From: an uncultured Cytophagaceae bacterium
GTDB taxonomy: Bacteria > Bacteroidota > Bacteroidia > Cytophagales > Spirosomataceae
DNA length: 34,747 nucleotides
Direction: 5' to 3'
NCBI GenBank assembly: GCA_903933935.1
Contig: CAIZMB010000023.1
Coordinates: 1 to 34,747 of the forward strand
The notes under the pieces were generated by a model that made no database searches, was not told the origin of the DNA, and saw only the letters and a program-made list of their open reading frames with translations. The stretch's first letter is position 1; each line of letters begins with the position of its first letter. The position numbers and the translations under genes were made by a program. Shown piece by piece: positions 9,503-34,529 of the stretch.

Positions 9503-10879
9503 TTAGAATCCTTTGACTTCCCAACCTTTGCGATAGGTTCTCTTTAAAAACTTTTCTGCCGCTGGATAATTAGGGAATTTCATTTTTGCTGAATCCCAAG
9601 TTAACAATTGGTCCGGTACGCGAATCGCAATCGTTCCTAATAAAACAGCTTCCGCCATAGGTCCCGATTGTGCAAAATGCGACTCGGTTTTTTCACCTCC
9701 CAAACAGGCATCCACAAAATGATGGTAATGATTTCGCTCAGCCAATGTCGGTATTTTCACCTCTTTTGGTGTACCAAAAGGAATGTACACAGGCATTTTT
9801 CCATGCGGAATTAATAATGCGCCCTCCGTTCCGATCAACATCGCAGATTCAGCCGGATATTCTCCACCCTTATATAAATCCATGACTTCTTTCGGCGGAT
9901 AAAACTCGCCATCAAACCATTCTAATTGGAGTGTATCCTTTTCTGTCATCGCATTGCCCGGAAATTGCCATGTAATATGATTTCCCTGTGGCCATGTATC
10001 TGCACGACGCTCAGGTGAATTTTGCCATGATTTTTGAACCTCAGCTACGACTGAAATTGGAGGTTTCATATCCAAGCCTTTCCAAACCGCATCAAAAATA
10101 TGGCAACCAATATCTCCAGACCAACCGGTTCCAAAATCTTGCCAAGTTCTCCAAATAGCTGAATGGTAAATATCGGGTGCATATGGCCTTACCGGCGCCG
10201 TTCCTATCCACTGATCCCAATGTAAATGCGAAGGAACTTCTTGTCCTTGTGCAGGTCTAGGACCCACTAATCGGTATTTAGCTACTGCTCCAGGCCGATT
10301 CGAACATAAATAAGCATGTTTCACCTTGCCTATGAGGCCTTGCTTGATCATAATTACCCCGGTTCTGTCGCCCATCGTAGAAGCAATTTGAGTTCCTAGT
10401 TGGGTCGTAACACCTGCTTTTACCGCTTCTTTGGTTAATGCACGCACCTCCGCCACATCATGGCACATAGGCTTTTGACAATACACATGTTTTTTATTTC
10501 GGATCGCCTGCACCGCAATCGCATAGTGATTATGATCCGGCACGGTTACATTCACCGAATCAATGTTGTCCTGCTCCGCTTTTAATAATTCACGGTAATC
10601 GGTATAAGTTCTGGCGCCTGGACACAAGTCCGCAGCACGTTTTAGATTTTTTTCATCTACATCACAAAGAGCGACGATCTCGACCGAAGCATGTTTTTTG
10701 AATTGTTGCAAATCGCCCCATCCCATCCCACCTACACCTATGGCCGCATGTCTTAGTTTTGTGCCCGCCGGTATTTTAGCAGCCGCTTCATTCGTAAATA
10801 ATAAAGGACCCGCTATGGCTGCCGTAGCCGCCTTGATCATAAATTCTCTCCGAGAATTTGCTTGTACTTTGTTTTTCAT
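9503..10879 (-). CDS. Tat-exported Gfo/Idh/MocA family oxidoreductase
   Basis: This 458-aa protein opens with a Tat signal (SRREFMIKAATAAIAGPLL, about 9-27). The Rossmann motif GVGGMG is at 48-53, then PDHNH at 114-118 and the catalytic-lysine motif QKP at 135-137. GDIGCHIFDA carries H260 and D263, equivalent to the family's catalytic acid/base region. The C-terminus ends KRTYRKGWEVKGF, typical of the Bacteroidota-type C-terminal domain. The family oxidises or reduces sugars and polyols with tightly bound NAD(P); exported members such as Zymomonas glucose-fructose oxidoreductase keep the cofactor bound. It is operonic with the ceramidase-like gene upstream (25-bp gap) and the cytochrome c fusion downstream (18 bp). 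The substrate is unknown. Confidence 0.92.
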   Translation of the reverse strand: MKNKVQANSRREFMIKAATAAIAGPLLFTNEAAAKIPAGTKLRHAAIGVGGMGWGDLQQFKKHASVEIVALCDVDEKNLKRAADLCPGARTYTDYRELLKAEQDNIDSVNVTVPDHNHYAIAVQAIRNKKHVYCQKPMCHDVAEVRALTKEAVKAGVTTQLGTQIASTMGDRTGVIMIKQGLIGKVKHAYLCSNRPGAVAKYRLVGPRPAQGQEVPSHLHWDQWIGTAPVRPYAPDIYHSAIWRTWQDFGTGWSGDIGCHIFDAVWKGLDMKPPISVVAEVQKSWQNSPERRADTWPQGNHITWQFPGNAMTEKDTLQLEWFDGEFYPPKEVMDLYKGGEYPAESAMLIGTEGALLIPHGKMPVYIPFGTPKEVKIPTLAERNHYHHFVDACLGGEKTESHFAQSGPMAEAVLLGTIAIRVPDQLLTWDSAKMKFPNYPAAEKFLKRTYRKGWEVKGF

Positions 10880-10904
10880 AGGTTTAGGTTTTTGAATCTG
10901 TAAT

Positions 10905-12242
10905 TTATTTTATTTTTTTTAGAGTTAAGTAAATCGCCGCCATGATTTTTTCTTCAATGTCCTTTTCAAAAGGTCCTGGCATACCATAATAGATCATGCT
11001 TGAATCTGCTTCATATCCGCCTTCTTTTAAAACGCGTTCCGAAGGAATATAGCACATGACCTCATTGCTATATCCGGCAACAAAAATATTTTTATTAGGA
11101 AATTCTTTCTTGGTCCTCAACGAATAATCAACGACCACTTCGCCACCCAAGGCAATCATTCTGAATTCATTTCCTAGCCGAATTCCTTGGATCGGGTAGG
11201 TGTAAGTTTCGGTATTCCAACCTTTATTATAGGCCTCCAACATCAATTTGGCCCTTCTTTGGATAAACTTATCCGGACTCTGTAAGTCTTTTTGATAATC
11301 AGCCACCGGCACTTTTTTGAATTTCAATGGGATGGTACTGAAATAGGATTGAAGCTCATTTTTTATGGGCTTCACATCTTTTGAGTGGACCAAATTGACC
11401 ACTTGGTCTGCTAGGCTATTTCCATGTTTGATCGCAAGCTCCACTGTTCCGCGGGGTTCTGGGTTTTGATCCCCAGCACAACCTAAAATAAAAAATGCAG
11501 TAGCGGTAGGAATTTTTTTCTCAATGTCAATTTGCGCAAAACCCGCATAATCTCCATTGATTAAATAATTATTCCCCATCAAGGTGGTATTGTGACACGC
11601 ATAGCCAAATAAAACTGCCTTAATTTCACCCGATGAATTCATAAATTTCAAGACAGGAACATCGTGATCTATTGGGCCGGGAAGGTTAATGCCATTTTTC
11701 TGGGCGGCCAAAGCCCTTCGATTAATGGCAAAGTCGGCCGATGTATGTCCCACAAATACCTGCATAGGTTCCTGATGCTCATAGGCATTGACAATCACAG
11801 TCACTAATTTGTCAACCAAAACTTGCGTGTATTCCGAAACGATTTTTTGGTCCTCTGGGCTATATTGTGAAATGACACTTAAAGATGGCCATATCATAGG
11901 TCCAGAATGTGTATGTGATGAATTGAACATGAGTTGGCGCCTCTCGATCCCCAATTTCCCCTGAATTTTTTCAGCCACCTCCTCAGAAACCTGATGCGAA
12001 AGCCCTAATAAATCCGTGGTCACGATGATCATCTTCTCCTGCTTATTGGATAGTACCAGCGCCTTTGCCCATAAATCATGTAAAACTCCTTCGGAGGGCT
12101 TATCGCGATTCGCATAGCCCGTCATAAATGCGGGGGATTTGGGTGTAATGTTGATTTTGGCAATACCCACTTGCATCACCGACTGCGAAATACAATTGCC
12201 TATTGTCGCTAAATAAAGAAAAAATATAAGCCTTATTTTCAT
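10905..12242 (-). CDS. Neutral/alkaline ceramidase-like (N-terminal domain) secreted hydrolase
   Basis: This 445-aa protein has a signal peptide (IFFLYLATIGNCISQ) and then matches the N-terminal catalytic domain of neutral ceramidases. VGIAKINITP opens the domain, SSHTHSGP carries H110 and H112, and GYACHNTTL carries H217. GGEVVVDYS (E368) and GYSNEVMCYIPS (Y391/Y398) follow, which correspond in order to the zinc ligands of bacterial ceramidase. Full ceramidases are about 650 residues or more; this one lacks the C-terminal Ig-like domain. In Bacteroidota such short members are frequent beside sugar genes, and the true substrate may not be ceramide. Its ATG overlaps the TGA of the propeller gene by four bases (ATGA). 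Confidence 0.85.
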   Translation of the reverse strand: MKIRLIFFLYLATIGNCISQSVMQVGIAKINITPKSPAFMTGYANRDKPSEGVLHDLWAKALVLSNKQEKMIIVTTDLLGLSHQVSEEVAEKIQGKLGIERRQLMFNSSHTHSGPMIWPSLSVISQYSPEDQKIVSEYTQVLVDKLVTVIVNAYEHQEPMQVFVGHTSADFAINRRALAAQKNGINLPGPIDHDVPVLKFMNSSGEIKAVLFGYACHNTTLMGNNYLINGDYAGFAQIDIEKKIPTATAFFILGCAGDQNPEPRGTVELAIKHGNSLADQVVNLVHSKDVKPIKNELQSYFSTIPLKFKKVPVADYQKDLQSPDKFIQRRAKLMLEAYNKGWNTETYTYPIQGIRLGNEFRMIALGGEVVVDYSLRTKKEFPNKNIFVAGYSNEVMCYIPSERVLKEGGYEADSSMIYYGMPGPFEKDIEEKIMAAIYLTLKKIK

Positions 12243-13516
12243 GCTTCTAGTTTGATTTTGATTAAATCCGTAACGGTCCGACCTTTTCTATTAATTCTAG
12301 CCAAGGTATAAACATTGCCCAAGGTATCTAAAGCAATTGAATTTACATACAGGGGCCTGTCACCATTTTCATAAAAAATAGCACCATGATCACGGTAGGT
12401 ATTTGTCGGAATCTCATAAGTGACTAAATGCAAATTTTCTAATCCTTTAGCTGCGCCTTTGGCGATGGATTTTTCTCCCTCAATCCTTTTCCCATTTTCA
12501 TAAATGGGTCCGCCGGTTAAATAATAAATGGTTTTCCCATCAGGCCCCAACGCAAATCCTAAATAGCCGTAACTGAATTGGTCGAAAAATCCTGATTTTT
12601 TTGAAGGCAGAGAAGTGATGCGATCGACAATTTCGACGGTTTGTGCCTTTGGGTCAAACTTAAATAAGTAACCGGAATTTCCATGAACGCCATAGGCTAC
12701 ATGTTCAGGGGCATACCAAAAGATTTGTCGCCAATGATATCCCATCGTTCCCGGTAATGTAGGATCGTATTTTCCAAAATAATCCAAACGTAAATGAACT
12801 CGGTCTAATGCGCTTATTTTCATTTCAAAAGGATTCATATAAAATATGTCTCCTTCGATGGTCGTATAATAACAAAAACCCGTGTCATCGTCGACGACCA
12901 GCGACCGACATAACGAACGAAAATCGATTCCAGGCGTTCCTGCTTCCCCATTTCCTGAAATCTTGTCCAATAGTGTTAGCTTTTTTTCGTTGACCTGGTA
13001 GCAGAAAAATTGTCCCGTGGGCCAAGTAATACCAAAGATATTTCCTCTCTGAGTATCCATCACCATCGTGACCACACCCTCTCCATTTGGGATCATGGCT
13101 AAATCGGCAAAGGACTCCTCTTGTAAATCATAGGATAGGATATGACCTCCTGGATATAAATCAAAACCATCCGGCGCCTGCTCCGGAAGGCGATCCATCC
13201 CATCTATAAGTTGGTAATATCCGACATGGGTAGAAAAGTACAGTTTGTTTTGAAATTCATAAAATAAGACATGACTCTTTCCTTGGGCGATGCTTTTTTG
13301 ACCTCCCTCCCCACAAAGGACGCTTAGGTCACCTAGGAATTTAATCTCTTCTTTAATGGGATCGAACCGAAACATTTGACCGCCCACATCAATTTGATCG
13401 GACGACAATACATAATATAAACGTCCATCGCTCGCCACCGACATGGCATTATAGGTATCGTGCGCTTCTAAAAAGCCCGAATCAAAACAGGATGCAATCA
13501 ATGGGCTTTGTATCAT
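12239..13516 (-). CDS. Uncharacterised beta-propeller-like protein
   Basis: I do not recognise a named family for this 425-aa protein. The sequence has repeated strand-rich blocks of the type LYYV, LYFSTHVGYYQL, HILSYDLQEES, NIFGITWPTGQFFCYQV, GDIFYMNPF, GYLFKFDPK and TIYYLTGGPIY. About six or seven such blocks, spaced 50-60 residues apart, suggest a beta-propeller of the SMP-30/lactonase or quinoprotein-like kind. No signal peptide is visible, so it is probably cytoplasmic, unlike most of its operon partners. It is locked between the DegT-type gene and the ceramidase-like gene by four-base ATGA overlaps on both sides, which argues that its product is needed together with theirs. It might be a lactonase, an isomerase or a binding protein; no function is claimed. 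Confidence 0.82.
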   Translation of the reverse strand: MIQSPLIASCFDSGFLEAHDTYNAMSVASDGRLYYVLSSDQIDVGGQMFRFDPIKEEIKFLGDLSVLCGEGGQKSIAQGKSHVLFYEFQNKLYFSTHVGYYQLIDGMDRLPEQAPDGFDLYPGGHILSYDLQEESFADLAMIPNGEGVVTMVMDTQRGNIFGITWPTGQFFCYQVNEKKLTLLDKISGNGEAGTPGIDFRSLCRSLVVDDDTGFCYYTTIEGDIFYMNPFEMKISALDRVHLRLDYFGKYDPTLPGTMGYHWRQIFWYAPEHVAYGVHGNSGYLFKFDPKAQTVEIVDRITSLPSKKSGFFDQFSYGYLGFALGPDGKTIYYLTGGPIYENGKRIEGEKSIAKGAAKGLENLHLVTYEIPTNTYRDHGAIFYENGDRPLYVNSIALDTLGNVYTLARINRKGRTVTDLIKIKLEA

Positions 13517-14877
13517 TGGAGCTTCTTCTTAATTTCATCTGCATGTGTATGGATGCGCTGGATCGCTTGGAAAATTAAATCCATATCGTTTTTGGAACCC
13601 AAAAGCATATTCTGTGTAAACCAAACCGCCTCATTACATAAGGTGTCATTTAAGGGACATTGGTTCTGCTCCATATAAGTGGCATAATTCAGTTCACCCG
13701 AATGGTACATCTTTTTGAAATTGACCGATTCAAACGTCTGCTTTAAAAACGGTTGCGTATTTAATGCCGTATATCCACCCATGCAAGGAACTCCTTCAGC
13801 GTCTAATGCTTTTAAAAATTGGGCTCTAGACAAACCTTTGAAGGCTGTTTGGTCATATCGAAAGGGATATAAATGGTAAGCTGCTTTGGTTACTTCCGGG
13901 TATAAACGCAAAATATGTATGCCTGGTATTGTTTTTAATAAGGAAGTCAAATAATTCGCATTTTGATTTCTCGTTTCCGTTTGCGCTTCCAATCGGGTTA
14001 ATTGGGCCAGGCCAATCGCCGCTTGATATTCTGAGAATCTCAATTTGTTTGCTTGCATTTGACTCCCGGCCGTCACAGATCCAGTGGATATTCCATAAGG
14101 TAATCCTAAATTATGATAGGAATAACAGGCATCCATAAAAGCATCATCGTCACTGATGATAGCGCCACCTTCACCGATGGCAATATTTTTTGAGTTTTGA
14201 AAACTATAGCAACCAGCTTTTCCAAACGTGCCTACTTTTTGATGATTTATTTCAGCTAAGGGAGCTTGGCATGTATCTTCAATCACGATTAGCTGGTGCT
14301 TTTTAGCGATATCCATGATGCGGATCATATCAGAGGGAAGACCTAAAATATGGACAGGCATGATGGCTTTTGTTCTTTTAGTGATTTTAGCTTCGATTTT
14401 TGAGGGATCCATTTGGAAAGTCGTCGGATCTACATCCACAAAAATGGGGATAGCGCCATTCGCTAAAATGGATTGTATGGTAGCGATGAACGTATAAGGA
14501 GTAACAATGACCTCGTCACCAGCGTTAATTTGGGATTGGTGTAGTGCAATGATCAGTGCGTTCGTTCCATTAACCACTGTTATACACCTTTTGGAACCGA
14601 TCAATTTTGCCCAAGCCTGTTCGAATTGGATGACTGTTTTTGATCTGGACCAAACACCGCTTCGCATCACGTCTAATAGGATTTTTTCGTCTTTCTCTGC
14701 ATCCCAAATAGGCCATTTAATCCATTGGCCAGGATTTATGGTTTTCTCTCCGCCTAAAATAAATGGCTTATTGGATTTTTTTGAAATGATCGAAAAATTC
14801 GATTTTGATAAAATTCCTGCATTTAAACTTAGAATTGATGCTTTTTTTATAAAATCTCTTCTTTTGGCATTTTTCAT
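13513..14877 (-). CDS. DegT/DnrJ/EryC1/StrS family PLP aminotransferase-like protein with a Tat-type N-terminus
   Basis: This 454-aa protein contains a complete DegT/StrS sugar aminotransferase fold. NGTNALIIAL (about 103-112) would bind the PLP phosphate, D201 in IEDTCQA contacts the PLP ring nitrogen, and K230 in YSFQNSKNIAIGEGGAI is the Schiff-base lysine. The family transfers an amino group to nucleotide-linked keto sugars. The oddity is the N-terminus KRRDFIKKASILSLNAGIL, a good twin-arginine motif plus a hydrophobic stretch ahead of the enzyme (which begins about residue 38). The start is well supported: it is the first gene of the operon and no other ATG precedes the domain at a normal distance. 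It may act on free keto sugars in the periplasm, or be an aldolase/dehydratase-like relative. Its TGA overlaps the next ATG. Confidence 0.9.
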   Translation of the reverse strand: MKNAKRRDFIKKASILSLNAGILSKSNFSIISKKSNKPFILGGEKTINPGQWIKWPIWDAEKDEKILLDVMRSGVWSRSKTVIQFEQAWAKLIGSKRCITVVNGTNALIIALHQSQINAGDEVIVTPYTFIATIQSILANGAIPIFVDVDPTTFQMDPSKIEAKITKRTKAIMPVHILGLPSDMIRIMDIAKKHQLIVIEDTCQAPLAEINHQKVGTFGKAGCYSFQNSKNIAIGEGGAIISDDDAFMDACYSYHNLGLPYGISTGSVTAGSQMQANKLRFSEYQAAIGLAQLTRLEAQTETRNQNANYLTSLLKTIPGIHILRLYPEVTKAAYHLYPFRYDQTAFKGLSRAQFLKALDAEGVPCMGGYTALNTQPFLKQTFESVNFKKMYHSGELNYATYMEQNQCPLNDTLCNEAVWFTQNMLLGSKNDMDLIFQAIQRIHTHADEIKKKLQ

Positions 14878-15113: not shown

Positions 15114-18100
15114 ATGAAAAAAAATTTACTAAGCAAAATTTTGTTTTTGCTGGTATGCCTAGTCTCCATGTCGTGGAGTGCAATGGCACAATCTCAAACC
15201 ATCACCGGTAAAGTTACCGATGAAAAAGGGGAGGCCTTAGTAGGAGTTAACATCATACTAAAGGAAACCAGTAGAGGAACAACCACTAACATCGATGGAA
15301 AATACTCCATCTCAGTGGCAGGCGCTAGTAGCCAATTAACATTTACCTCGGTGGGTTATGACAGCAAAACCATCACGGTAGGAAGTCAGACATTGATCAA
15401 TGTCGTTTTGACTGCAAATGCTCAGAACTTATCTGAAGTAGTCGTGATCGGTTACGGTACACAACGTAAATCTGATTTAACGGGTGCTGTGAGTTCGATC
15501 AAAACAGATCAATTGTTGGAGCGTCCAGCATCTTCATTAAACCAAGCTTTGGCTGGTCGTATGGCGGGTGTTCAAGTGAACAACAACTCTGGTCGTCCAG
15601 GTGGTCGTACTACAGTTCGTGTTCGTGGATTTAGCTCGATTAACTCTTCAAACAACCCTTTGTACGTAGTGGATGGTGTCATGCTTCCTCAAGGAACATT
15701 GAACCAGTTTACTAATGCCATCGATTATTTGAATCCAAATGATATCGTTTCAGTTGAGGTGTTGAAAGACGCATCGTCAACAGCCATTTATGGTGCTCGT
15801 GGAGCGAACGGAGTTATTTTGGTGACAACCAAAAAAGGTCAATCAGGTGAAGGAACAGTTACATATAATTCTGATTTCAGTGTGAACGTAACAGGACCTA
15901 ACAAGCCAGAGGTGTTAAATGCCAAGCAATACATGGCAGTAGAGGATTTATCTTGGAAAAATATGGAGAAGTATGATCCAATTGGCTGGAAAAATGGCAA
16001 ATGGGCTGCATATGATCCTCGAATTCGTCGTGCTAATTACAGCAAGTTGTTTCCAGGTGTTTTTGATTCAAATTTAAATCCTTTGTATGACACCGATTGG
16101 TTTAATGAGTCGACTCAAGCAAAATTGTCTCAAAATCACCAATTAGGTTTCAGTGGTGGAAATAGCCGTACTCAGTACTCATTCTCGATTGGATACCGTG
16201 ATGATCAAGGTTTAGTAAAGACAACGTATTCTACGCGTTACTCTAGCCGTTTTACGATTGATGATCAAATTAAATCATGGTTGAAAGTGGGTGGTACATT
16301 AGCTTACAACAATCAAGCAGAGCGTTTATCGGATGTCAATGATGCAGTTTCACGTCAAATCGTGGAAGATTTTCCTTGGATGCCTGTGACTCATGCAGAT
16401 GGAACTTACGCGAATAACCGTGATTTCCCTTTTGCAGAAGGTACTTTCAGTTCAGTACACCGTTTAATGGGTCGTCAATATATTTTGAATACTCAAACAA
16501 CAACAGGTAGTGTTTATTCAAACATTACGTTCATGAAAGGTTTAGAGATGAAGACTGTGTTGGGTGCTAATATCATGACTCAAGAGAACAACTCTTCTCA
16601 GACACGTACTTTGGCAATTGCCAATCAAGGGGAAGCATCTGCTTCTAATTCAAAAGAGACTTTCTGGTCATTAGAGAATTACTTGACTTATACCAAAGAG
16701 TTTAATGATATTCATTCGATCACAGCTTTATTGGGTCTATCTTGGCAACAAACAGATGCATTCAGTATTAATGCGAACGTTCGTGGATTTGCAACGGATT
16801 ATTTTGGTTTTAATAACTTAGGTGCTGCGGCAACTTTAGGGGGTATTGGATCAGGAGCGTCTAAGTTTGCCTTTAATTCTTATTTCGGTCGTGTGAACTA
16901 TGGCTTAATGAATAAGTATTTAGCTACGATTACTGCTCGTGCTGACGGTTCATCTCGTTTTGGAGAGAATAATAAATTCGCTCTTTTCCCTTCAGGTGCA
17001 TTGGCTTGGAGAGTATCTGAGGAGGATTTCTTGAAAGGAAGTACAACTATTTCTAATTTGAAATTAAGAACTTCTTATGGTATCACAGGTAACTCTGAAA
17101 TTCCTTCATACTCATCATTGCCATTGTTAAGTTCTAATTATGCAACGGTCATTAATGATGCGCGTGTATCAGGAACAGGTATTTCTCGTTTAGCTAACCC
17201 TGATTTACAGTGGGAGAAGACAGCTCAAACAGATTTTGGTATCGAGTTGGGATTATGGAATGGCCGCGTAAGCATTGAAGCTGATTACTACTACCGTTTA
17301 ACGACGGATATGTTATTAGATGCTCCGGTACCTACCACTTCTGGTTATGGTACAATTCGTAGAAACGTAGGTTCGATGGAAAACAAAGGAGTTGAATTCA
17401 TGATTAACTCGGTGAATGTAAACACGAAAGGTTTCCAATGGAATACAAACTTTAATATTTCATTCAATAGAAATAAAGTTTTATCTCTAGCTACTCCATC
17501 TGATATCTTCAACGTAGGAGGTCCTAACTTTACCAACCCAACTAACATCATCCGTATCGGTGAGCCAGTAGGTTCATTCTGGGGATTGACTCGTTTGGGT
17601 GTTTGGAGTGAAGCTGAGCGTGATCAAGCGGCTAAGTTTACTTCATACCGAAATGGTTTAACGATGTTACCTGGAGATTTGAAATACAAAGATTTCAATG
17701 GGGACAATGCGATCACAGATGCTGACCGTAGAATTATTGGAAATGGTAGCCCTGATTTCTGGGGTTCATTTACGAATACATTCAAGTATAATAACTTTGA
17801 TTTAATGTTGGAATTAGCTTATTCGTACGGAAACGATGTGATGTTAATGAACTTACACCCATCTGAAGATCGTCAAGCTTTAGCGAATAGTTATTCAACA
17901 GTATTGAACGCTTGGACACCAACAAACCAAAACACAATGATTGCTGAGATACGTGATACACGTGCTGGTTATGTGACTAACGTAGATACTTGGTGGATTA
18001 AAGATGGTTCATTCTTAAGAGGAAGAAACTTATTGTTAGGTTATACTTTCCCAACGAATGTTGCTAACAAGCTTAAGTTAAGCCGTTTACGTGTATATGG

Positions 18101-18269
18101 AACTGCTCAAAATTTCTTCTTATTAGTTAAAGAAGCTGGTGTAGTAGGTGATCCTGAAACTACTCCTTTAAATCAAGGGGGTGGTAACAGTGCATTCTCA
18201 CAAGGTATGATTTGGCATAATTATCCAAAGCCAACGATTTACATGGTGGGTCTACAAGTTGCATTTTAA
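15114..18269 (+). CDS. susC: SusC/RagA family TonB-linked outer membrane transporter
   Basis: This 1051-aa protein has a signal peptide (cleavage near AMA-Q26) and a carboxypeptidase-D-regulatory-like domain (about 29-105, TGKVTDEKGEALVGVNI). The conserved EVVVIGYGTQ element (about 108-117) leads into the plug, where VDGVMLP and LKDASSTAIYGARGANGVI are typical SusC signatures. A long beta-barrel ends in an aromatic/hydrophobic strand (MVGLQVAF). With SusD it imports oligosaccharides through the outer membrane using TonB energy. The downstream sialidase, NagA and NagB suggest sialylated or GlcNAc-containing glycans as cargo. Arginine is mostly CGT, unlike several nearby genes, consistent with strong expression. 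The SusD gene follows after 30 bp. Confidence 0.97.
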   Translation: MKKNLLSKILFLLVCLVSMSWSAMAQSQTITGKVTDEKGEALVGVNIILKETSRGTTTNIDGKYSISVAGASSQLTFTSVGYDSKTITVGSQTLINVVLTANAQNLSEVVVIGYGTQRKSDLTGAVSSIKTDQLLERPASSLNQALAGRMAGVQVNNNSGRPGGRTTVRVRGFSSINSSNNPLYVVDGVMLPQGTLNQFTNAIDYLNPNDIVSVEVLKDASSTAIYGARGANGVILVTTKKGQSGEGTVTYNSDFSVNVTGPNKPEVLNAKQYMAVEDLSWKNMEKYDPIGWKNGKWAAYDPRIRRANYSKLFPGVFDSNLNPLYDTDWFNESTQAKLSQNHQLGFSGGNSRTQYSFSIGYRDDQGLVKTTYSTRYSSRFTIDDQIKSWLKVGGTLAYNNQAERLSDVNDAVSRQIVEDFPWMPVTHADGTYANNRDFPFAEGTFSSVHRLMGRQYILNTQTTTGSVYSNITFMKGLEMKTVLGANIMTQENNSSQTRTLAIANQGEASASNSKETFWSLENYLTYTKEFNDIHSITALLGLSWQQTDAFSINANVRGFATDYFGFNNLGAAATLGGIGSGASKFAFNSYFGRVNYGLMNKYLATITARADGSSRFGENNKFALFPSGALAWRVSEEDFLKGSTTISNLKLRTSYGITGNSEIPSYSSLPLLSSNYATVINDARVSGTGISRLANPDLQWEKTAQTDFGIELGLWNGRVSIEADYYYRLTTDMLLDAPVPTTSGYGTIRRNVGSMENKGVEFMINSVNVNTKGFQWNTNFNISFNRNKVLSLATPSDIFNVGGPNFTNPTNIIRIGEPVGSFWGLTRLGVWSEAERDQAAKFTSYRNGLTMLPGDLKYKDFNGDNAITDADRRIIGNGSPDFWGSFTNTFKYNNFDLMLELAYSYGNDVMLMNLHPSEDRQALANSYSTVLNAWTPTNQNTMIAEIRDTRAGYVTNVDTWWIKDGSFLRGRNLLLGYTFPTNVANKLKLSRLRVYGTAQNFFLLVKEAGVVGDPETTPLNQGGGNSAFSQGMIWHNYPKPTIYMVGLQVAF

Positions 18270-18299: not shown

Positions 18300-19856
18300 A
18301 TGAAAAAACAATTAATTTCCAAAATATATAAGATCGCCTTGGTAGGCGTGCTGTTATTTGGACAATCGGCTTGCTCAGATTTCTTAACTGAAAAGGCGCC
18401 GTCCAATTTAACACCAAGTAGTTTCTATACCATTCCAGATCATGCGGAGGCTGCTATTGCATCTGTTTATGCTGATTTAAGGTTTATGGGTGGTGGAGCA
18501 GGTATTTTCTCGTCCAACTGGCAATTGTTAGAAGCTCTAACAGGAACTTCTACGACTGAGACTGCACAGAATTCAGATTTGAACAACCTTTACGGTTTAG
18601 TTCATGATGGATATACCGTTCACATTGTCAATTATTGGGGTGGTCTATACAAGGTTATCGCTCAGGCAAACCAAGTAATTGAGAAAGTTCCAGCGATTAC
18701 TCCGATGGATGCGAAACAAAAAAGTAAGATTTTAGGAGAAGCTCGTTTCTTACGTGCGTCTGCATATTTTACTGCGGTTCGTTTATGGGGAGATATTCCA
18801 TTGATCACTAAGCCGCAAACGGCTTCTTCTGAAGATTTTCTTCCAGCAAGAGCACCTGCTGAGTCTGTATACAAATTGATCGTTGAAGATTTAATCGCTG
18901 CGGAAGCGGCTGGATTAGATTGGATGGATTCACGTGGTCGTGTAGGAACAGCTGCTATAAAGGCTCAATTAGCTGAAGTTTATTTAACGATGGCTGGTGG
19001 TACTTTGAATAAAGGCGCTAGTCATTATAAATTAGCTGCGGATAAAGCATTTGAAGTAATTACGTATGCAAATAGCAACCCAACTTCAGTGAATTTATTT
19101 AATACTTATTATGATATTCATCGCGAGTCAACTGAAAATAAATTGGAACATTTATTTATGATTCAATACAATAACTCAGTAGCAGGGAATCCAATGGAAA
19201 ATTTCTATCCGAACTTTAAGCCAGTAACTTTCTCTGGTCCAGGTGGAACGGGTTCATCAGTTCCAACTCCAGCTTTTTATAAATCTTATGAAGAAGGAGA
19301 TCTTAGAACAAAAGACCAAGAAGGATATTTCTATACAAGTTACTACACCAATGGAAGTGGAGCTCCGTTTAGCTTAGGTGCACCTTATGTATTTAAGCAT
19401 TTTAATCAAACATCTGCTGGAACGTCTGGCGCGCCTGGAACACGTAATAATAATTTAAATGTTCCTCAAATTCGCTATGCTCAAGTTTTATTGACTTATG
19501 CGGAGGCTCAAAATGAAGTGGGTGGTCCAACGCAAGCAGCTTATGACGCATTCAAAAGAATTCGTGATCGTGCGAAGTTAACTACTCCTGCTTTGGGAAC
19601 TTATACAGCGGCTTCGTTTAGGACAGCCGTTTGGAAAGAGCGTTGGCATGAATTATGCTACGAGCAAATCACTTGGTTTGATATGGTACGCTTGAAAAAA
19701 GCATTCAATCAAAATACAAAAACCTTTGAGGAATTTGTTGGACATACAAACCTTAGCTCAAACCAAAAGTTACAAGCGAAGCATTTATTACTTCCTTTGC
19801 CAACGGCTGAGTTGTTAAACAATCCAAAATTAGGAAAGCAAAACACTGGATATTAA
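18300..19856 (+). CDS. susD: SusD/RagB family glycan-binding outer membrane lipoprotein
   Basis: This 518-aa lipoprotein has the lipobox cysteine at residue 25 (GQSAC), followed by the typical SusD N-terminus DFLTEKAPSNLTPSSFYT. Helical TPR-like segments follow (AILGEARFLRAS-type sequence in KILGEARFLRASAYF; KAQLAEVYLTMAG). The C-terminal part has YAQVLLTYAEAQNEVGG, RIRDRAKL and WKERWHELCYEQITWFDMVR, all SusD hallmarks. It forms the lid on the SusC barrel at the cell surface and binds the glycan. It is complete and of normal length. A strong terminator follows, so the SusCD transcript can end here before the enzyme genes. Confidence 0.96.
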   Translation: MKKQLISKIYKIALVGVLLFGQSACSDFLTEKAPSNLTPSSFYTIPDHAEAAIASVYADLRFMGGGAGIFSSNWQLLEALTGTSTTETAQNSDLNNLYGLVHDGYTVHIVNYWGGLYKVIAQANQVIEKVPAITPMDAKQKSKILGEARFLRASAYFTAVRLWGDIPLITKPQTASSEDFLPARAPAESVYKLIVEDLIAAEAAGLDWMDSRGRVGTAAIKAQLAEVYLTMAGGTLNKGASHYKLAADKAFEVITYANSNPTSVNLFNTYYDIHRESTENKLEHLFMIQYNNSVAGNPMENFYPNFKPVTFSGPGGTGSSVPTPAFYKSYEEGDLRTKDQEGYFYTSYYTNGSGAPFSLGAPYVFKHFNQTSAGTSGAPGTRNNNLNVPQIRYAQVLLTYAEAQNEVGGPTQAAYDAFKRIRDRAKLTTPALGTYTAASFRTAVWKERWHELCYEQITWFDMVRLKKAFNQNTKTFEEFVGHTNLSSNQKLQAKHLLLPLPTAELLNNPKLGKQNTGY

Positions 19857-25600: not shown

Positions 25601-26319
25601 TCCAATTCTTTTATTTTGATGTTTTTGAATGCTACATTGTGGCCGTGATCTTGCAATAAAATATAGCCTTCTTTACGTTTATCGTATCCCGTTATCGATT
25701 TGAATTTACTTTGTAAGAATCCATTTTTGAATTCATTCGAATTCCGATTGACCGATATGATCATTTTGTTGTCCAACCAATGTTCAATTTGCTCACCCTT
25801 CACCACAATGCGGGAGGTATGCCATTGACCAATTTTCACATCCGGTTTATCGGGAGGAACCATGTTGTAAAGAGCCCCCGTTTTATGGTCTTCGGGCAAG
25901 TGCTTGTCGTTATAGATAAAATCGGGATCGTCTATTAATTGATATTCATAACCGATCAATGAGCTTGAATTCGCTGGTTTTTGAGGAAGTTCTTCCACAA
26001 AGTACTTGACCCCTGAATTACCTAATTTCCCCAATTTCCAATCAAAACTAAGATCAAAATTTTTGTATTTTTTTAACGTAATGATATCACCCCCATCGCC
26101 GGATTCTTTTCCGGAAGATAATTGGCCCAATAGCTGTTGGTTTTTAATTACCCATCCATGGGAAGGGAATTGATTTTGGTAGGCACCGCGCCAACCAGTA
26201 TTTGATTTTCCGTCAAAAAGCAAAGTATAGCCGTTGGTTTTTTCGATGCGACTCAATTTATTGTTTTGACATGAGCCAAAAAATAAGCCTATTAATAGAA
26301 CGCTGATTATTTTTTTCAT
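25597..26319 (-). CDS. DUF1080 lipoprotein (3-keto-disaccharide hydrolase domain)
   Basis: This 240-aa protein is a lipoprotein with the lipobox cysteine at C17 (LFFGSC). It is followed by one DUF1080 domain, a concanavalin-like beta-sandwich: YTLLFDGKSNTGWRG, GGDIITLKKYKNFDLSFDWK, GNSGVKYFV, HKTGALYNMVPP and the C-terminal LLQDHGHNVAFKNIKIKEL. Domain databases link this family to 3-keto-glycoside lyase/3-keto-2-hydroxy-glucal hydratase activity. It is probably anchored in the outer or inner membrane facing the periplasm. It is the third gene of the transporter-Gfo/Idh-DUF1080 unit (4-bp gap), a pairing that fits oxidation at C3 of a sugar followed by cleavage. The domain is certain; its action on this organism's glycans is inferred. 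Confidence 0.93.
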   Translation of the reverse strand: MKKIISVLLIGLFFGSCQNNKLSRIEKTNGYTLLFDGKSNTGWRGAYQNQFPSHGWVIKNQQLLGQLSSGKESGDGGDIITLKKYKNFDLSFDWKLGKLGNSGVKYFVEELPQKPANSSSLIGYEYQLIDDPDFIYNDKHLPEDHKTGALYNMVPPDKPDVKIGQWHTSRIVVKGEQIEHWLDNKMIISVNRNSNEFKNGFLQSKFKSITGYDKRKEGYILLQDHGHNVAFKNIKIKELD

Positions 26320-26323: not shown

Positions 26324-27319
26324 TTAAATGATGTTGGCGATTTTTACTCGGCCCCCTTTTTTCTTTTTGCTTTTATCTGCCGCTTCCATAAAGGCAAATA
26401 TTTCTAAGGTTTCTGCTTTATCTACAGGAGGAATACCCGTTTTAAAGAATTCAATAATTTTAACTAAAAGAGGATCATATCCATTGTAAGGCCCTAAATG
26501 CATGATCCCTGTTTTGCCATATGCGGTCCCACCGTAATCTTGTTTACCCGTTTTTATGCCTCTAAATGTGCCGATTCTTCCATCCGCCCAAACGCCTGTA
26601 CAAACCTCTTGGTCTTCTGAAATCGTTCTTTGGACCGAAACACAACCCGTTCCCATGACGGTAAATAGCATTTCAACGCCATGAATTCCGTACCAAAAAA
26701 GATCAGGATGAGTTTTTTCGAATTTCATTGGGCTATAGGTGTCGGCACCCACCACTGGGCCAATTTTACCCTGCCTTATCTCTTGCATCCCCGCGGAAAA
26801 GCGTAAGGATGAAGCAGAGAATATAGGTACTTTGTATTTTGCAGCTTCATTGAAAATTTCTTTCGCATCGGCTAAAGATGCGGCTATCGGCTTGTCGATA
26901 AATGTCGTTTTACCTGCTTTAAATACTTCAATGGCCTGCTCTAAATGCAGTCTTCCATCATTTGTTTCAAGCAAAACAAAATCTACTTTACTTAATAATT
27001 CTTGAATCGATCCCACAATTTCGACGCCTAGTTTCTTGACATCTTCGGTATATCCAGGGATTCGTTCGGTACTGGAAACGATGTCTTTGCTTCCTTGGGG
27101 ATAAGCTGCTACAATTCGAAATCCTTCATAAATGGGATTTTGAATGCTCGCATTTAATGATTTTGTGAAGGCAACACTATGGGAAGTATCGAGTCCAATA
27201 ATCCCAATTCTTTTTCCTTCCGCCGCTCTTGGCATGAATTTAAACTTAGAAAATGGCAGACTTAAACCCGCCAAAGCCATGGGTCCCATAAAATCCCTTC
27301 TTGTCATTTTTCCTTTCAT
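26324..27319 (-). CDS. Tat-type Gfo/Idh/MocA oxidoreductase, divergent short form
   Basis: This 331-aa protein is counted from the ATG at 27319; a TTG six bases upstream is less likely. It has a Tat-like start (MTRRDFMGPMALAGLSLPF, 5-23), then a divergent Rossmann motif GIIGLDTSH (39-47). The family lysine lies in IDKP (141-144), and YGIHGVEMLF supplies the expected His. It is about 120 residues shorter than the other Gfo/Idh proteins of the window and lacks their C-terminal KRxYRxGW ending, so it belongs to another subfamily. The gap from the transporter stop is 9 bp and to DUF1080 is 4 bp. The neighbours suggest it provides the oxidised sugar for the DUF1080 protein, or reduces the 3-keto product. 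Confidence 0.87.
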   Translation of the reverse strand: MKGKMTRRDFMGPMALAGLSLPFSKFKFMPRAAEGKRIGIIGLDTSHSVAFTKSLNASIQNPIYEGFRIVAAYPQGSKDIVSSTERIPGYTEDVKKLGVEIVGSIQELLSKVDFVLLETNDGRLHLEQAIEVFKAGKTTFIDKPIAASLADAKEIFNEAAKYKVPIFSASSLRFSAGMQEIRQGKIGPVVGADTYSPMKFEKTHPDLFWYGIHGVEMLFTVMGTGCVSVQRTISEDQEVCTGVWADGRIGTFRGIKTGKQDYGGTAYGKTGIMHLGPYNGYDPLLVKIIEFFKTGIPPVDKAETLEIFAFMEAADKSKKKKGGRVKIANII

Positions 27320-27328
27320 CTTCAATTA

Positions 27329-28645
27329 TTAATTAAGCGTCCATTGTCTGATTTTATGTCCTTTGATGGCATAAAAAATTAAGTATAAATAGCAGGGAAT
27401 TAAAACGGCATAGGCCAACTTCAAGTCATACAGATCCGCGAAATAGCCATAAAAAAGGGGTAGGATTGCATTTCCACAAAGGCCCATAATTAAAATGGAT
27501 GCACCTATTTTAGTAAATTTTCCTAAGCCGTCTAGGGCTAAGGGCCAGATCCCCGCCCAAATTAGCGAGTTGGCCAAACCTAATAAAACAACGAAACAAA
27601 TACTCACGTCAACCTTTAATCCTGCCAGTTCTACAATTCCAGAGGTCATTAATATTCCAAAGGAAAACAGTAAGCCAAGAATGGTACATGTGCGAAGCGC
27701 ATTTACTTGGCTGATGTATTTTGGGATGCATATGATCCCGATGATATATCCAAAAATAGTAGCAGCGAGCGTAAATGAAGGGAAAATTTTAGCTTCCATG
27801 AGCTGGATATTCATTGACCCCGCGTAGCCAATAACGGTATCGATGGCTATTACTTGGGTGCCAACGTGCAGAAAAATGGCAAAGGCACCTAAAATCAAAT
27901 GGGGAAATTGGAATATGCTCGTTTTCTGTGAATTGACCTGTGTCACTATATCATTTTCTTGATCCGTATCGATCTCAGGTAATGGAGAAAATCGAACCGC
28001 TAAACCTAATAGGAACAATAAAATCCCGACGCAAAAATAAGGAACGATCACTCGTTGGATTAATTCATTTAGCGCCAAATTTCGGTCGGCCCCAGTCATG
28101 TGTTCCAAATTCTTAAACAAGTCACTATCTGTGGCCTTTAGAATCACTGCGGCAAATACCAGCGGGGCCAAAATCCCTGCGCCTTTATTACAGATTCCCA
28201 TGATGCTGATCCTTTGGGCTGCACTTTCTTTTGGCCCTAAAAGAGTGATATATGGATTTGCGGCAGTTTGTAGGATGGCTAATCCGGTACCTAAAGTAAA
28301 AAGTCCTAATAAGAAAATTGGATATGCTCGGTTCATTGCCGCAGGAATAAAGATGAATGCCCCGACCGACATAATCCAAAATCCAAGCATCATACCTTTC
28401 TTAAAACCAATGGATTTTAATACATAGGATGCAGGCACTGACATAATGAAATAGGAAATATAAAATGCAAACGTAACTAAATAGGCTTTGAAGTTGGTAA
28501 GTTCACAGGCGATTTTAAAGTAGGGGATCAAAATAGAATTGGCCCAGGAAACAAAACCGAAAATGAAAAACATCATTCCAATTAACATGATGGAAATTTG
28601 AGTATCTCTTTGGGTTAAAGAGCTTACTGATACTGGATTTTTCAT
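27329..28645 (-). CDS. Sugar MFS transporter, FHS family (FucP/GluP/NagP-like)
   Basis: This 438-aa protein has about twelve membrane helices and the FHS-family opening MFFIFGFVSWANSILIPYFK (25-44). The loop LQTAANPYITLLGP and the conserved AQRISIMGICNKGAG are also typical of fucose:H+ symporter relatives, including Bacteroidota GlcNAc permease NagP. It should bring a monosaccharide, or its 3-keto form, through the inner membrane with protons. As first gene of the unit it precedes the Gfo/Idh and DUF1080 genes. NagP is a reasonable guess because of the nearby NagA and NagB, but fucose, glucose or galactose cannot be excluded. Confidence 0.9.
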   Translation of the reverse strand: MKNPVSVSSLTQRDTQISIMLIGMMFFIFGFVSWANSILIPYFKIACELTNFKAYLVTFAFYISYFIMSVPASYVLKSIGFKKGMMLGFWIMSVGAFIFIPAAMNRAYPIFLLGLFTLGTGLAILQTAANPYITLLGPKESAAQRISIMGICNKGAGILAPLVFAAVILKATDSDLFKNLEHMTGADRNLALNELIQRVIVPYFCVGILLFLLGLAVRFSPLPEIDTDQENDIVTQVNSQKTSIFQFPHLILGAFAIFLHVGTQVIAIDTVIGYAGSMNIQLMEAKIFPSFTLAATIFGYIIGIICIPKYISQVNALRTCTILGLLFSFGILMTSGIVELAGLKVDVSICFVVLLGLANSLIWAGIWPLALDGLGKFTKIGASILIMGLCGNAILPLFYGYFADLYDLKLAYAVLIPCYLYLIFYAIKGHKIRQWTLN

Positions 28646-29909: not shown

Positions 29910-31337
29910 ATGGACGTAACTAGACGAAGTTTTTTGGAAAAAAGTGCCCTGGCAGGTAGCTTTTACATTGTTCCTAGGCATGTGTTAGGAAAGGGTTTTC
30001 GCGCTCCTAGTGATCAATTGAATATCGCTGGTGTGGGGATTAATGGAAAAGGGATGTCGGACGTAAATAATGCCTACAACGAGGGTGTTAATAATATTAC
30101 AGCTCTTTGCGATGTGGATTTGACGCGTGCAAAACCGTTGTTTGAGAAGTTTTCTAAGGCGGGTCGCTATCAAGATTGGCGCGTAATGCTTGAAAAAGAA
30201 AAGGGTATTGACGCAGTAACAATTTCCACGCCTGATCATAATCATGCAGCTATTGCCATGGCTGCCATGCAATTAGGAAAACATGTGTATGTTCAAAAGC
30301 CGATGGCGCATAATATTTTCGAGGTTCGCACCATGACTGAAGCGGCTAGAAAATATAAAGTAGTTTCTCAAATGGGAAATCAAGGGGCTTCTAGTCCAGG
30401 GACCCAGCAAGTTGTCAAATGGTTTGAAGAAGGATTGATTGGTAAAGTCCATACCGTCAACATTTGGACCAATCGCCCGATTTGGCCTCAGGGAATTCCT
30501 GTTCCTTCTGGAAAACATGAAAAACCATCGGACATCGACTGGGATGTTTGGTTGGGACCTGCATCTTTGATTGATTATAATCCAGCTTACCATCCATTTA
30601 AGTGGAGAGGTTGGTGGAATTTTGGTACGGGTGCTTTGGGGGATATGGGTTGCCACTTAATTGATGGACCATTTAGAGCGCTTGGGTTAGGTTATCCTAC
30701 GGAAGTTGAAGCGAGTGTAGGCTCCGTTTTTGTTGCAGGAAACCAACCTGAATACATACCAGAAGGATGCCCGCCATCGGCTGCAATCCAATTGAAATTT
30801 CCGGCATCAAAGAAAAATAAATCGGCCGTTACGATGAACTGGACAGATGGTGGTATTCGCGGATTCCACCCTGATTTGATTCCTGCAGATGATTCGATTG
30901 GGACCGCAGATAATAGTAATGGGGTGATCATGATGGGTTCTAAAGGAGTTTTGGTCCATGCAACCTATGGGTTAGAGCCACGTATTTACTTGAATAATGG
31001 GACTAAAATAGAGATGCCAAAGCAAGAGCCAAATAACCTAAAAGAGTATGGCCATCAAGCGATGTGGGCGGAAGCATGCAAAGCAGGATTCAATAGTGCA
31101 GCGCATCAAGGTTTATCTTCGAAATTTGATTTTGCGGGTCCATTATCAGAAACTGTGTTGATGGGAAATTTAGCTATTCGTAGTTTCAACGTGCGCACGC
31201 CGATTCCAAACACAAATAGATTCACGTATCCTGGACGTAAGAAGTTACTTTGGGATGGACAAAATATGAAGATTACTAATTTTGAGGATGCCAATCAATT
31301 TGTTAAGCGTGAATATCGTGCTGGTTGGAAATTATAA
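29910..31337 (+). CDS. Tat-exported Gfo/Idh/MocA family oxidoreductase
   Basis: This 475-aa protein is counted from the ATG at 29910; the frame opens at a TTG at 29865, but only the ATG places the Tat motif (TRRSFLEKSALAGSF, 4-18) at the N-terminus. IVPRHVLGKGFRAPSD follows, a segment shared with the paralogue at 33075-34529. GVGINGKG (41-48), PDHNH and QKP (129-131) mark the cofactor and lysine sites, GDMGCHLIDGPFRALGL carries the second catalytic region, and the end is KREYRAGWKL. It lies 69 bp after GT9 and 5 bp before the secreted unknown protein. Substrate unknown; glycan oxidation in the periplasm is likely. Confidence 0.92.
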   Translation: MDVTRRSFLEKSALAGSFYIVPRHVLGKGFRAPSDQLNIAGVGINGKGMSDVNNAYNEGVNNITALCDVDLTRAKPLFEKFSKAGRYQDWRVMLEKEKGIDAVTISTPDHNHAAIAMAAMQLGKHVYVQKPMAHNIFEVRTMTEAARKYKVVSQMGNQGASSPGTQQVVKWFEEGLIGKVHTVNIWTNRPIWPQGIPVPSGKHEKPSDIDWDVWLGPASLIDYNPAYHPFKWRGWWNFGTGALGDMGCHLIDGPFRALGLGYPTEVEASVGSVFVAGNQPEYIPEGCPPSAAIQLKFPASKKNKSAVTMNWTDGGIRGFHPDLIPADDSIGTADNSNGVIMMGSKGVLVHATYGLEPRIYLNNGTKIEMPKQEPNNLKEYGHQAMWAEACKAGFNSAAHQGLSSKFDFAGPLSETVLMGNLAIRSFNVRTPIPNTNRFTYPGRKKLLWDGQNMKITNFEDANQFVKREYRAGWKL

Positions 31338-32962: not shown

Positions 32963-32988
32963 ACGTTTTGTCAAGAATAATATAAATT

Positions 32989-33020: not shown

Positions 33021-33074
33021 TTATTAATTTTCACAATTTTTTATTTAGCTTTAAAAGTTCAAATTCTAAACCTA

Positions 33075-34529
33075 ATGAAAAAGAAAAAAACAGTGGACTC
33101 CCGTCGGGAGTTTTTGAAATCAGCCTCCTTAGCATCTGCAGGATTCATGATTGTCCCTCGCCACGTATTAGGCGGTAAAGGCTTTTTAGCACCTAGCGAC
33201 AAATTAGTTGTAGCCGGTATTGGAGCGGGTGGAAAAGGTAAATCAGATTTAAAATATTTCTACGATAGCGGTAAAGCGGATATTGGTTATTTATGTGATG
33301 TAGATGATCGCATGGCTAAAGATTCAATCGCAGCATATCCAAAAGCAAAATACTATAAAGATTGGCGTAAAATGATGGAAGTGGAATCGAAGAATTTCGA
33401 TGCTGTTTCTGTTTCTACGCCGGATCATAACCATGCGGTTCAAGCCATGGCTGCCATGCAATTGGGAAAGCACGTGTATGTGCAAAAGCCAATGACGCAC
33501 GATATTTTCGAGGCTCGTATGTTGACGCAAGCGGCTGCAAAATACAAAGTAGTGACTCAAATGGGTAACCAAGGTAGCTCTGGTGACGGGGTGCGCCAAT
33601 TGGTTGAATGGTATGACGCGGACATTATTGGGGATGTTCATACGGTTCAAATTTGGACAAACAGACCCATTTGGCCACAAGGTATTCCTTGGCCTTCCAC
33701 TAAGCCTGCAGTTCCTGCTGGATTAGATTGGGATTTATGGTTAGGTACTGCACCTCAAAAAGATTATGTTGAAAACTTGATTCCAGGCTCATGGCGTGGT
33801 TGGTGGGACTATGGTACAGGCGCTTTAGGTGATTTAGGTTGCCACTTAATGGAAGCTCCTTTCCGTGTCTTAGGTTTGAAATACGCTTCTGATGTTCAAG
33901 CTAGTGTGAGTAGTGTATTTACCGCGTTTGGTAAAAGAGGTGTATTCTTAGATTCTTGCCCTCCATCAAGTCATGCAACGTTAACTTTCCCTAAAACGGA
34001 TCGTACAAAAGGACCTGTAACCATGCATTGGATGGATGGTGGAATTAAGCCAGAACGTCCAGAAGAATTAGGGCCGGATGAAATGTTTGGTGATGGTAAT
34101 TCGGGTATCTTGTTTATTGGTACCAAAGGAAAAATGATGGCTAGTGAATATGCGGCTAATCCTCGTTTATTGCCTTTGTCAAGAAATCAAGAAGTAAAAG
34201 TGCCTCGTAAATTGGAGCGTGTTCCAGGCAGTGCCGACGGACATTATGCTCAATGGGTGGAAGGTGCTATTGCTGGATACGGTAAAAAACAATTAAGTTC
34301 GCCATTTGATTTGGCAGGTCCTTTGACTGAAGCGATCTTAATGGCTAATCTAGCTATTCGTGTGGCCGATATGCCTTTCCCTCGTAAAACAGGAAACGGA
34401 ATGCATTATCCAGGTTCAAACACAAAATTACTTTGGGATAACCAAAATATGCGCGTGACCAACTTCGATGCGGCTAACCAATTCGTCAAGCGTCAATATC
34501 GTGCTGGTTGGGGTGAATTAACACTTTAA
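33075..34529 (+). CDS. Tat-exported Gfo/Idh/MocA family oxidoreductase, paralogue of the gene at 29910
   Basis: This 484-aa protein is counted from the ATG at 33075; the frame extends to a TTG at 33012, but that would put an extra hydrophobic stretch before the Tat signal. The Tat signal is SRREFLKSASLASAGFM (9-25), followed by IVPRHVLGGKGFLAPSDK. GIGAGGKG (48-55), PDHNH and QKP (137-139) are present. GDLGCHLMEAPFRVLGL is the second catalytic region, with Met-Glu where the paralogue has Ile-Asp. The C-terminus KRQYRAGWGELTL matches the other long Gfo/Idh proteins. Most arginines are CGT, as in SusC, suggesting high expression. It is a single-gene unit closed by a terminator. The substrate is unknown. 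Confidence 0.93.
   Translation: MKKKKTVDSRREFLKSASLASAGFMIVPRHVLGGKGFLAPSDKLVVAGIGAGGKGKSDLKYFYDSGKADIGYLCDVDDRMAKDSIAAYPKAKYYKDWRKMMEVESKNFDAVSVSTPDHNHAVQAMAAMQLGKHVYVQKPMTHDIFEARMLTQAAAKYKVVTQMGNQGSSGDGVRQLVEWYDADIIGDVHTVQIWTNRPIWPQGIPWPSTKPAVPAGLDWDLWLGTAPQKDYVENLIPGSWRGWWDYGTGALGDLGCHLMEAPFRVLGLKYASDVQASVSSVFTAFGKRGVFLDSCPPSSHATLTFPKTDRTKGPVTMHWMDGGIKPERPEELGPDEMFGDGNSGILFIGTKGKMMASEYAANPRLLPLSRNQEVKVPRKLERVPGSADGHYAQWVEGAIAGYGKKQLSSPFDLAGPLTEAILMANLAIRVADMPFPRKTGNGMHYPGSNTKLLWDNQNMRVTNFDAANQFVKRQYRAGWGELTL

Follow-up and report, generated by a model that had tools for sequence, protein, structure and literature searches.

What are five putatively exported oxidoreductases of the Gfo/Idh family doing within one short contig of a freshwater bacterium? 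The window, that is the whole stretch of 34,747 nucleotides analysed here (contig C23 of a 2.89 Mb genome of an uncultured Cytophagaceae bacterium, 98.9% complete in 198 contigs), carries GfoA (9503..10879, minus strand), GfoB (21167..22510, plus), GfoC (26324..27325, minus), GfoD (29910..31337, plus) and GfoE (33075..34529, plus). A sequence-only reading had joined all five with a TIM-barrel protein, a DUF1080 lipoprotein and a cytochrome fusion into one system for oxidative glycoside cleavage, working beside a sialidase. Its inventory is sound: the genes lie where it placed them and match PF01408 with 72.5, 52.7, 44.1, 64.5 and 61.3 bits (GfoA to GfoE; cut-off 24), all five begin with twin-arginine signals (SRREF, TRRTF, TRRDF, TRRSF and SRREF, in the same order), and the TIM barrel with its twin-arginine translocation (Tat) motif, the lipoprotein, the cytochrome fusion, a SusCD pair and the sialidase are all present in the window. 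The starts at 29910 and 33075 are internal ATGs, the mechanical open reading frame scan beginning at 29865 and 33012. The clustering also exceeds chance: at the genome's density of 30 PF01408 matches per 2.89 Mb a stretch of this length should hold 0.36, and five are present (Poisson 3.8e-5, rising to about 0.003 when 83 windows are allowed for). Proteins of this type are nevertheless common genome-wide (the BT_2158 model matches 25 times and DUF1080 19 times, some of the matches being two per gene). What comparison finds conserved in the locus is a cassette, most likely for glucosamine or N-acetylglucosamine (GlcNAc), rather than a five-enzyme system. The sequence-only reading had overlooked the NagP, NagX, NagA and NagB context, the Tat signal of a DegT protein, and the DegT, propeller and ceramidase-like genes as parts of the conserved unit.

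The evidence for the cassette comes from comparison. Among 150 genomes of the family, with GfoB called from near-full-length matches of at least 65% identity, GfoC occurs in 81 of the 82 genomes that have GfoB, and six genomes have GfoC only (Fisher 7e-34). Two genomes with a partial GfoB stand outside this count, one of them (G128) among the six GfoC-only genomes and with its partial GfoB 3 kb from GfoC, the other (G129) giving no GfoC match; a recount that takes both in gives 2e-33, neither value being corrected for relatedness. The two genes lie within 20 kb of each other in 72 of the 81 genomes, and 26 genomes have them separated by less than 500 bp.

The content of the neighbourhood was counted in 60 fetched loci, whose selection centred on GfoB, GfoC or the propeller; the counts of these three are therefore partly a product of construction, a point to be set against the linkage; more generally, loci L141-L232 were a non-random choice made around GfoB, GfoC, GfoE or the propeller. 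The core consists of GfoB (53 loci), a NagP-like importer of the major facilitator superfamily (MFS; 53), NagB (49), GfoC (49) and NagA (48), to which are added the propeller (25), DegT (22), the ceramidase-like gene (21), a PF16490 Gfo/Idh-like protein (19), a LacI regulator (14), a NagX-like DUF5009 protein (12) and a DUF7133 dehydrogenase (10). Outside the genus, 26 of 37 loci have the importer gene no more than 500 bp from GfoB. At least four genera (g5, g26, g31 and g32) have the genes in succession on one strand, in the order GfoC, DegT, ceramidase-like, propeller, GfoB, MFS, NagA, NagB, with an occasional extra gene between them, and in two other families GfoB, GfoC, the importer and NagB stand together without DegT (L221-L224), the NagA match there reaching 57% in L223-L224 and only 27-28% in L221-L222. 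Comparison thus shows a genetic link of GfoB and GfoC with NagA, NagB and the NagP-like importer, in some genera with a NagX-like protein, and in at least four genera also with an exported-type DegT protein, a ceramidase-like amidase and the propeller. No description of a GfoB-GfoC pair in nag loci was found in the titles and abstracts of open-licence PubMed Central (PMC) papers.

In the window the cassette is represented by the genes of a NagX-like DUF5009 membrane protein and candidate periplasmic glucosamine N-acetyltransferase (22514..23650, plus; motif HPDWNGF; NF046061 332.9 bits, cut-off 480), a NagB-like glucosamine-6-phosphate deaminase (23663..24406, plus; TIGR00502 136.4 bits, cut-off 236.9), the NagA N-acetylglucosamine-6-phosphate deacetylase (24410..25600, plus; TIGR00221 282.7 bits, cut-off 225.65) and the NagP-like MFS sugar transporter (27329..28645, minus; NF046060 NagP 384.6 bits, cut-off 625; TIGR01272 245.7 bits, cut-off 202.55). 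NagA thus exceeds its curated cut-off; the DUF5009 protein and the transporter have their best NCBIfam matches in NagX and NagP, in both cases, as for NagB, below the cut-off. GfoC stands 3 bp from the importer gene and 4 bp upstream of a gene for a lipoprotein of the DUF1080 (3-keto-disaccharide hydrolase) family (25597..26319, minus). The window's cassette genes fall into three presumed operons, the gaps ranging from -4 to 92 bp; a promoter and terminator scan of 18000-34747 performed no better than on shuffled sequence, and Rfam gave nothing at the gathering threshold. In the parts of PMC9007349 drawn on here, mutant fitness data tie NagX, often with NagP and NagA, to glucosamine use, and Price and colleagues, working with five bacteria, proposed that glucosamine in the periplasm is acetylated by NagX before being imported and passed to the NagA step. 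Given these data and the NagA, NagX and NagP matches, the cassette most likely serves glucosamine or GlcNAc, with GfoB and GfoC as its exported front end.

What such a front end might do is suggested by the families to which the proteins belong. The glycoside 3-dehydrogenase model BT_2158_fam (NF058561) matches GfoE with 467 bits, GfoD with 464, GfoA with 289 and GfoB with 145, and GfoC not at all; its curated cut-off of 750 is reached by none of the five, nor by any of the 25 matches in the genome. GfoE aligns with the solved dehydrogenases 8tdf (1.6e-89) and 8tdh (1e-86), which are also the best solved relatives of GfoB (PF01408 and PF19051), whereas GfoC matches PF01408 only. The DUF1080 protein, whose N-terminus looks like a lipobox on visual inspection, scores 145.6 bits against PF06439 (cut-off 26.8) and resembles the solved structures 4jqt (3.3e-51), 3hbk (5.5e-47) and 8tda (3.9e-27). 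Oxidative glycoside chemistry is accordingly plausible for GfoA, GfoB, GfoD and GfoE, as the sequence-only reading had held; it fits GfoC poorly. Its claim of export is supported by the signals: RRxF motifs occur in seven window proteins and TatC is encoded once in the genome, export itself being predicted.

The dividing line between GfoB and GfoC lies in their dinucleotide signatures (the distinct-sequence counts for the Gfo/Idh motifs take in the window's own sequence). The acidic residue of beta-2 is Asp in 188 of 190 sequences of GfoA, GfoB, GfoD and GfoE. GfoB, which carries the Tat motif RRTF, keeps it in 84 of 84 sequences, together with the Lys of EKP and the His of NNG[TV]H (each 77/77), and has the loop GVNSRG in 76 of 77 distinct sequences. 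In GfoC the glycine-rich loop has become GLDTSH (76 of 78 aligned sequences), the second glycine is replaced by Asp in 76 of 77 sequences, the remaining one having a gap there, and beta-2 ends in Tyr in 77 of 77, against Asp in other Gfo/Idh proteins; the Lys of xKP and the His are retained in all 78. Four of the five proteins thus resemble dehydrogenases dependent on nicotinamide adenine dinucleotide (NAD), GfoC being the exception, and since the dinucleotide signatures are lost, we infer that GfoC makes no conventional use of NAD. In another family (f12) the GfoC orthologues have a Sec-like signal at the N-terminus (L223 and L224), which fits a protein with no need to be exported with its cofactor; in the tally of twin-arginine motifs among GfoC sequences, the Sec-like start of L223 was scored as such a motif by coincidence, and one of the two sequences scored without it (L145) has an overlong mechanical N-terminus.

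The same substitutions can be read in another way, namely that the pair sits in the cassette for a reason other than carbohydrate redox, for instance as catalytically inactive Gfo/Idh proteins that sense or bind a ligand. The loss of the GfoC signatures (77/77) and the Asn that GfoB has in place of Asp before the histidine (77/77) would suit such a role, which the retention of Lys and His in both proteins and of the beta-2 Asp in GfoB, together with the high conservation of GfoB, makes quite improbable.

The reading that we prefer, at something short of an even chance, is that the functional core is the nag cassette, with GfoB and GfoC carrying out a redox-assisted processing of amino-sugar glycosides before uptake. 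GfoB would pass through the Tat system with tightly bound NAD and act in the periplasm, oxidising a hydroxyl, probably at C3, of an amino-sugar glycoside. GfoC would then catalyse or support the next, non-redox step, such as elimination or hydration, joined in this genus by the DUF1080 protein, and the amino sugar would be restored by reduction at the expense of the NADH on GfoB. The freed glucosamine would be acetylated by NagX, imported by NagP and broken down by NagA and NagB; GfoA, GfoD, GfoE, the TIM barrel and the sialidase would have separate or accessory functions in the neighbourhood. A more specific form of the proposal makes GfoC the eliminase or hydratase partner of an NAD-bearing GfoB, the two forming an oxidative amino-sugar glycosidase that belongs to nag operons and is extended by DegT in several genera, with keto-amino-sugar chemistry outside the inner membrane; this we regard as rather unlikely.

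The DegT protein (13513..14877, minus; PF01041 322.9 bits; Tat signal KRRDF) points in a somewhat different direction. The gene lies between GfoC and GfoB in other genera, the twin-arginine motif is present in 23 of 23 sequences including the window's, and the lysine for pyridoxal 5'-phosphate in SFQNSKN (K230) is invariant in 14 of 14. Its profile is closest to those of 2-deoxy-scyllo-inosose aminotransferases, and the exported aminotransferase may aminate or deaminate a keto sugar; in the genera that have it, such a reaction would favour the view that GfoB and GfoC cleave no glycoside and instead turn an amino sugar, free or terminal, into GlcNAc for import by NagP, a conversion located outside the inner membrane and achieved by epimerisation or keto-sugar formation, with DegT (de)aminating in some genera. 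An inosose-aminotransferase-like enzyme suits keto-sugar amination better than glycoside cleavage, Gfo/Idh proteins with bound NAD include sugar-sugar oxidoreductases (5a02 and 1h6a, both weak matches of GfoB), and the closeness of the importer to GfoB fits the idea as well. DegT is absent from 38 of the 60 loci, however, the best solved relatives of GfoB resemble the glycoside-dehydrogenase family, and the DUF1080 and GH109 neighbours point to glycosides; on balance this conversion seems a less probable account, yet one to be taken seriously. An exported DegT protein with these partners was not described in the titles and abstracts of open-licence PMC papers.

The genes that accompany DegT in the window are those of a probably secreted neutral-ceramidase-like amidase (10905..12242, minus; PF04734 97.3 bits; profile match to 2zws, 5e-17) and of the propeller-like protein (12239..13516, minus), which has no signal peptide by eye and whose best Pfam match, SBBP, reaches 18.7 bits, under the cut-off of 20.5. 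The propeller co-occurs with DegT in 21 loci and with the ceramidase-like gene also in 21. Its single-sequence model has a predicted local distance difference test (pLDDT) score of 36, and its profile gave only short partial matches against the PDB. The propeller shows 53-62% identity to 14 relatives, and it occurs in three other families as well. Two further proteins were noted near the cassette. A PF16490 Gfo/Idh-like protein (L153:3166-4551, with relatives in 19-20 loci) stands beside it and has [ED]PGHFHA where the glycine-rich loop is expected (19/19). A small protein of the high-potential iron-sulfur type with a twin-arginine start (L208:6595-6927) adjoins the DUF7133 dehydrogenase, its cluster being found in eight of the 60 loci; it is a possible periplasmic electron acceptor.

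A further alternative is that GfoB alone is a complete NAD-dependent glycosidase, working like those of glycoside hydrolase (GH) family 109 or like NAD-dependent sulfoquinovosidases, with GfoC as a binding or regulatory partner. This is a live alternative because those enzymes carry out the whole sequence, from oxidation through elimination and hydration to reduction, in a single active site on an oxidoreductase fold (PMC10755693 and PMC6521355). Spirosoma linguale has a GH109 alpha-N-acetylgalactosaminidase. Counting for the glycoside processing that we prefer, a GH109 family occurs close to GfoC in four of the 60 loci (L169, L198, L200 and L215), as one cluster in which the L198 protein matches PF21252 and the L200 protein is 76% identical to it. 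The scan of neighbours for GH families covered 47 of 230 neighbour clusters, and 25 of its 95 Pfam families were listed, GH32 among them. In eight of 12 further loci (L225-L232) GfoC occurs with no GfoB nearby, four of these having DegT and the ceramidase-like gene, so that GfoC is not the partner of GfoB alone; this suits the alternative and tells against the two-protein mechanism. GfoB itself, on the other hand, has neither a match to the GH109_C domain nor the GGHGG loop, and the presence of GfoC in 81 of 82 GfoB genomes argues for a required partner, so that a self-sufficient GfoB appears improbable. Membership of the five window proteins in GH109 was considered and rejected, PF21252 and the GGHGG loop being found in none of them. 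GH109 has in common with the pair a Gfo/Idh-like fold, and GH109 enzymes act on N-acetylhexosamine glycosides; the differences are those just given, and the two GH109 genes of the genome lie elsewhere. NAD-dependent sulfoquinovosidases form family GH188.

Several further observations weigh against the redox-assisted processing that we prefer. GfoB has Asn for the second glycine of GxGxxG in 77 of 84 sequences, and the residue before its histidine is Asn (NNGTH), where 8tdf, GfoA, GfoD and GfoE have Asp (DxGCH); with these substitutions its activity may differ. The loss of NAD binding in GfoC is read from the alignment, and the structure model of GfoC (five window sequences; mean pLDDT 40) is too poor to check the NAD site. 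Nine genomes with both genes do not have them inside 20 kb on one contig. Beyond the family the genes are rare: in a class-wide survey of 395 genomes GfoC was found in nine, five of them outside the family, and in a phylum-wide survey of 395 genomes the propeller was found in six, three of them outside it. The DUF1080 gene adjoins GfoC mainly in this genus; what speaks for the proposal here is that it also stands beside GfoC or GfoB in three of 69 loci outside the genus (L155, L198 and L225), the adjacency with GfoC recurring in another family (L225). The genome also has two GH20 genes and the two GH109 genes away from the locus, by which a conventional release of N-acetylhexosamine would be possible.

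The remaining genes decide how much of the single five-enzyme system can be kept. In its favour are co-location, common Tat signals, the chemistry of the families and short gaps, the genes from DegT through the short-chain dehydrogenase/reductase SDR2 (5036..5833, minus), GfoA and the TIM barrel included, probably forming one transcript (gaps of -4 to 25 bp). The conservation of the parts speaks otherwise. Around GfoA (BT_2158_fam 289 bits) no other family occurs in more than seven of 71 surrounding loci, a count from which nine loci of the close lineage were excluded and in which several loci are short; lacking conserved neighbours, GfoA looks like a standalone and widely conserved protein outside the cassette. 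GfoA is 63-83% identical in the loci outside the close lineage and has DIGCH in 81 of 81 sequences, and, judged by GfoA, the closest named relatives of the genome are metagenome-assembled genomes (MAGs) filed as Spirosoma fluviale or Cytophagaceae. The family of GfoD and GfoE (both BT2158-like) is present in 147 of 150 genomes. Twelve genomes outside the genus have GfoB and a GfoE orthologue with 80% identity or more, and in none of them are the two close: they are on separate contigs in nine and 1.3 to 2.2 Mb apart in three. A protein encoded at 31325-32059 (plus) overlaps the end of GfoD, its sole match being a sub-threshold one to DUF4488.

The TIM barrel and the cytochrome fusion do not hold as members either. 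The former is a xylose-isomerase-like protein (5847..6962, minus; PF01261 62.8 bits; Tat signal DRRKF), for which kinship with solved eliminases or hydratases is not supported, as it matched no solved structure at 1e-3, a direct comparison with BT2156 not having been made; the latter is a PVC-type dehydrogenase (DUF7133) fused to cytochrome c (6971..9484, minus; DUF7133 and Cytochrom_C, one CSGCH). The near-identical genome L001 has no counterpart of 3570-9479 (GntP, SDR2, TIM barrel and cytochrome fusion) at this place, and lacks there 11121-14677 as well, that is most of the ceramidase-like gene, the propeller and DegT, while it retains GfoA, SusC and SDR1. These gaps on either side of GfoA could reflect repeated loss or gain, or gaps in MAG assembly. 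Two other loci, L004 and L023, were likewise seen to lack most of DegT and the propeller. Diverged DUF7133 homologues do occur in the cassette elsewhere (10 of 60 loci), the sampled one (L208) being without a cytochrome c match. With the missing NAD signatures of GfoC and the weak NanE match added to these findings, the one-system view becomes very unlikely.

The sialidase is a GH33-like protein (19949..21121, plus; PF13088; one YRIP and four Asp boxes), preceded by a SusC-like transporter (15114..18269, plus) and a SusD-like lipoprotein (18300..19856, plus), both regarded as local partners. It was observed next to GfoB only in close relatives (L001, L006 and three of 12 same-genus loci, namely L111, which is the window, L112 and L113); in another genus (L216) a relative with 51% identity is encoded some 9 kb from a GfoC gene. 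That the locus serves sialic-acid catabolism is doubted: the genome gave one sub-threshold NanE match (22.1 of 27 bits), NanA not having been searched for.

Among known systems the nearest is BT2156-BT2160 of Bacteroides thetaiotaomicron, in which an exported Gfo/Idh protein of the same model lies near a DUF1080 lipoprotein and 3-oxidation followed by a lyase/hydratase step has been proposed. A 2024 Nature paper reportedly describes the full oxidative glycoside pathway of this locus, with BT2158 as the glycoside 3-dehydrogenase and BT2157 as the DUF1080 protein. The window differs in that its proteins stay under 750 bits, and in having the nag cassette, a second Gfo/Idh protein without NAD signatures, and a TIM barrel outside the conserved unit. 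The GnnA/GnnB and NtdC/NtdA pairs of 3-amino sugar pathways likewise have a Gfo/Idh and a DegT protein encoded together, but their substrates are cytoplasmic nucleotide sugars or phospho sugars, whereas here both proteins carry Tat signals in a catabolic context. In the LacABC route to 3-ketolactose the dehydrogenase is LacABC and not a Gfo/Idh protein. That route, known from Caulobacter and Pedobacter, is similar in that oxidation takes place in the periplasm and a DUF1080 hydrolase is proposed to act next (PMC9007349, where DUF1080 proteins are proposed to be periplasmic 3-ketoglycoside hydrolases and BT2157 is also treated); BT2158 is treated in PMC11300592. The NagX-NagP-NagA-NagB pathway, as the same portion of PMC9007349 presents it, shares with the window NagA and the NagX-like and NagP-like proteins in one locus, and differs from it by the addition of GfoB and GfoC, and in several genera of DegT, the ceramidase-like protein and the propeller, as well as by the sub-cut-off scores of NagX, NagP and NagB.

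Taken in kind, then, the chemistry would be that known for BT2158 and GH109, and the element that appears new, as judged from gene content and motifs, is a nag-linked pair with a non-canonical partner. The earlier broad claim is narrowed to two genes with strong comparative support. If the proposal is true, it would give a concrete role in amino-sugar use to some of the many exported Gfo/Idh proteins, and it would mean that a dehydrogenase fold has been reused for a non-redox step of oxidative glycan cleavage.

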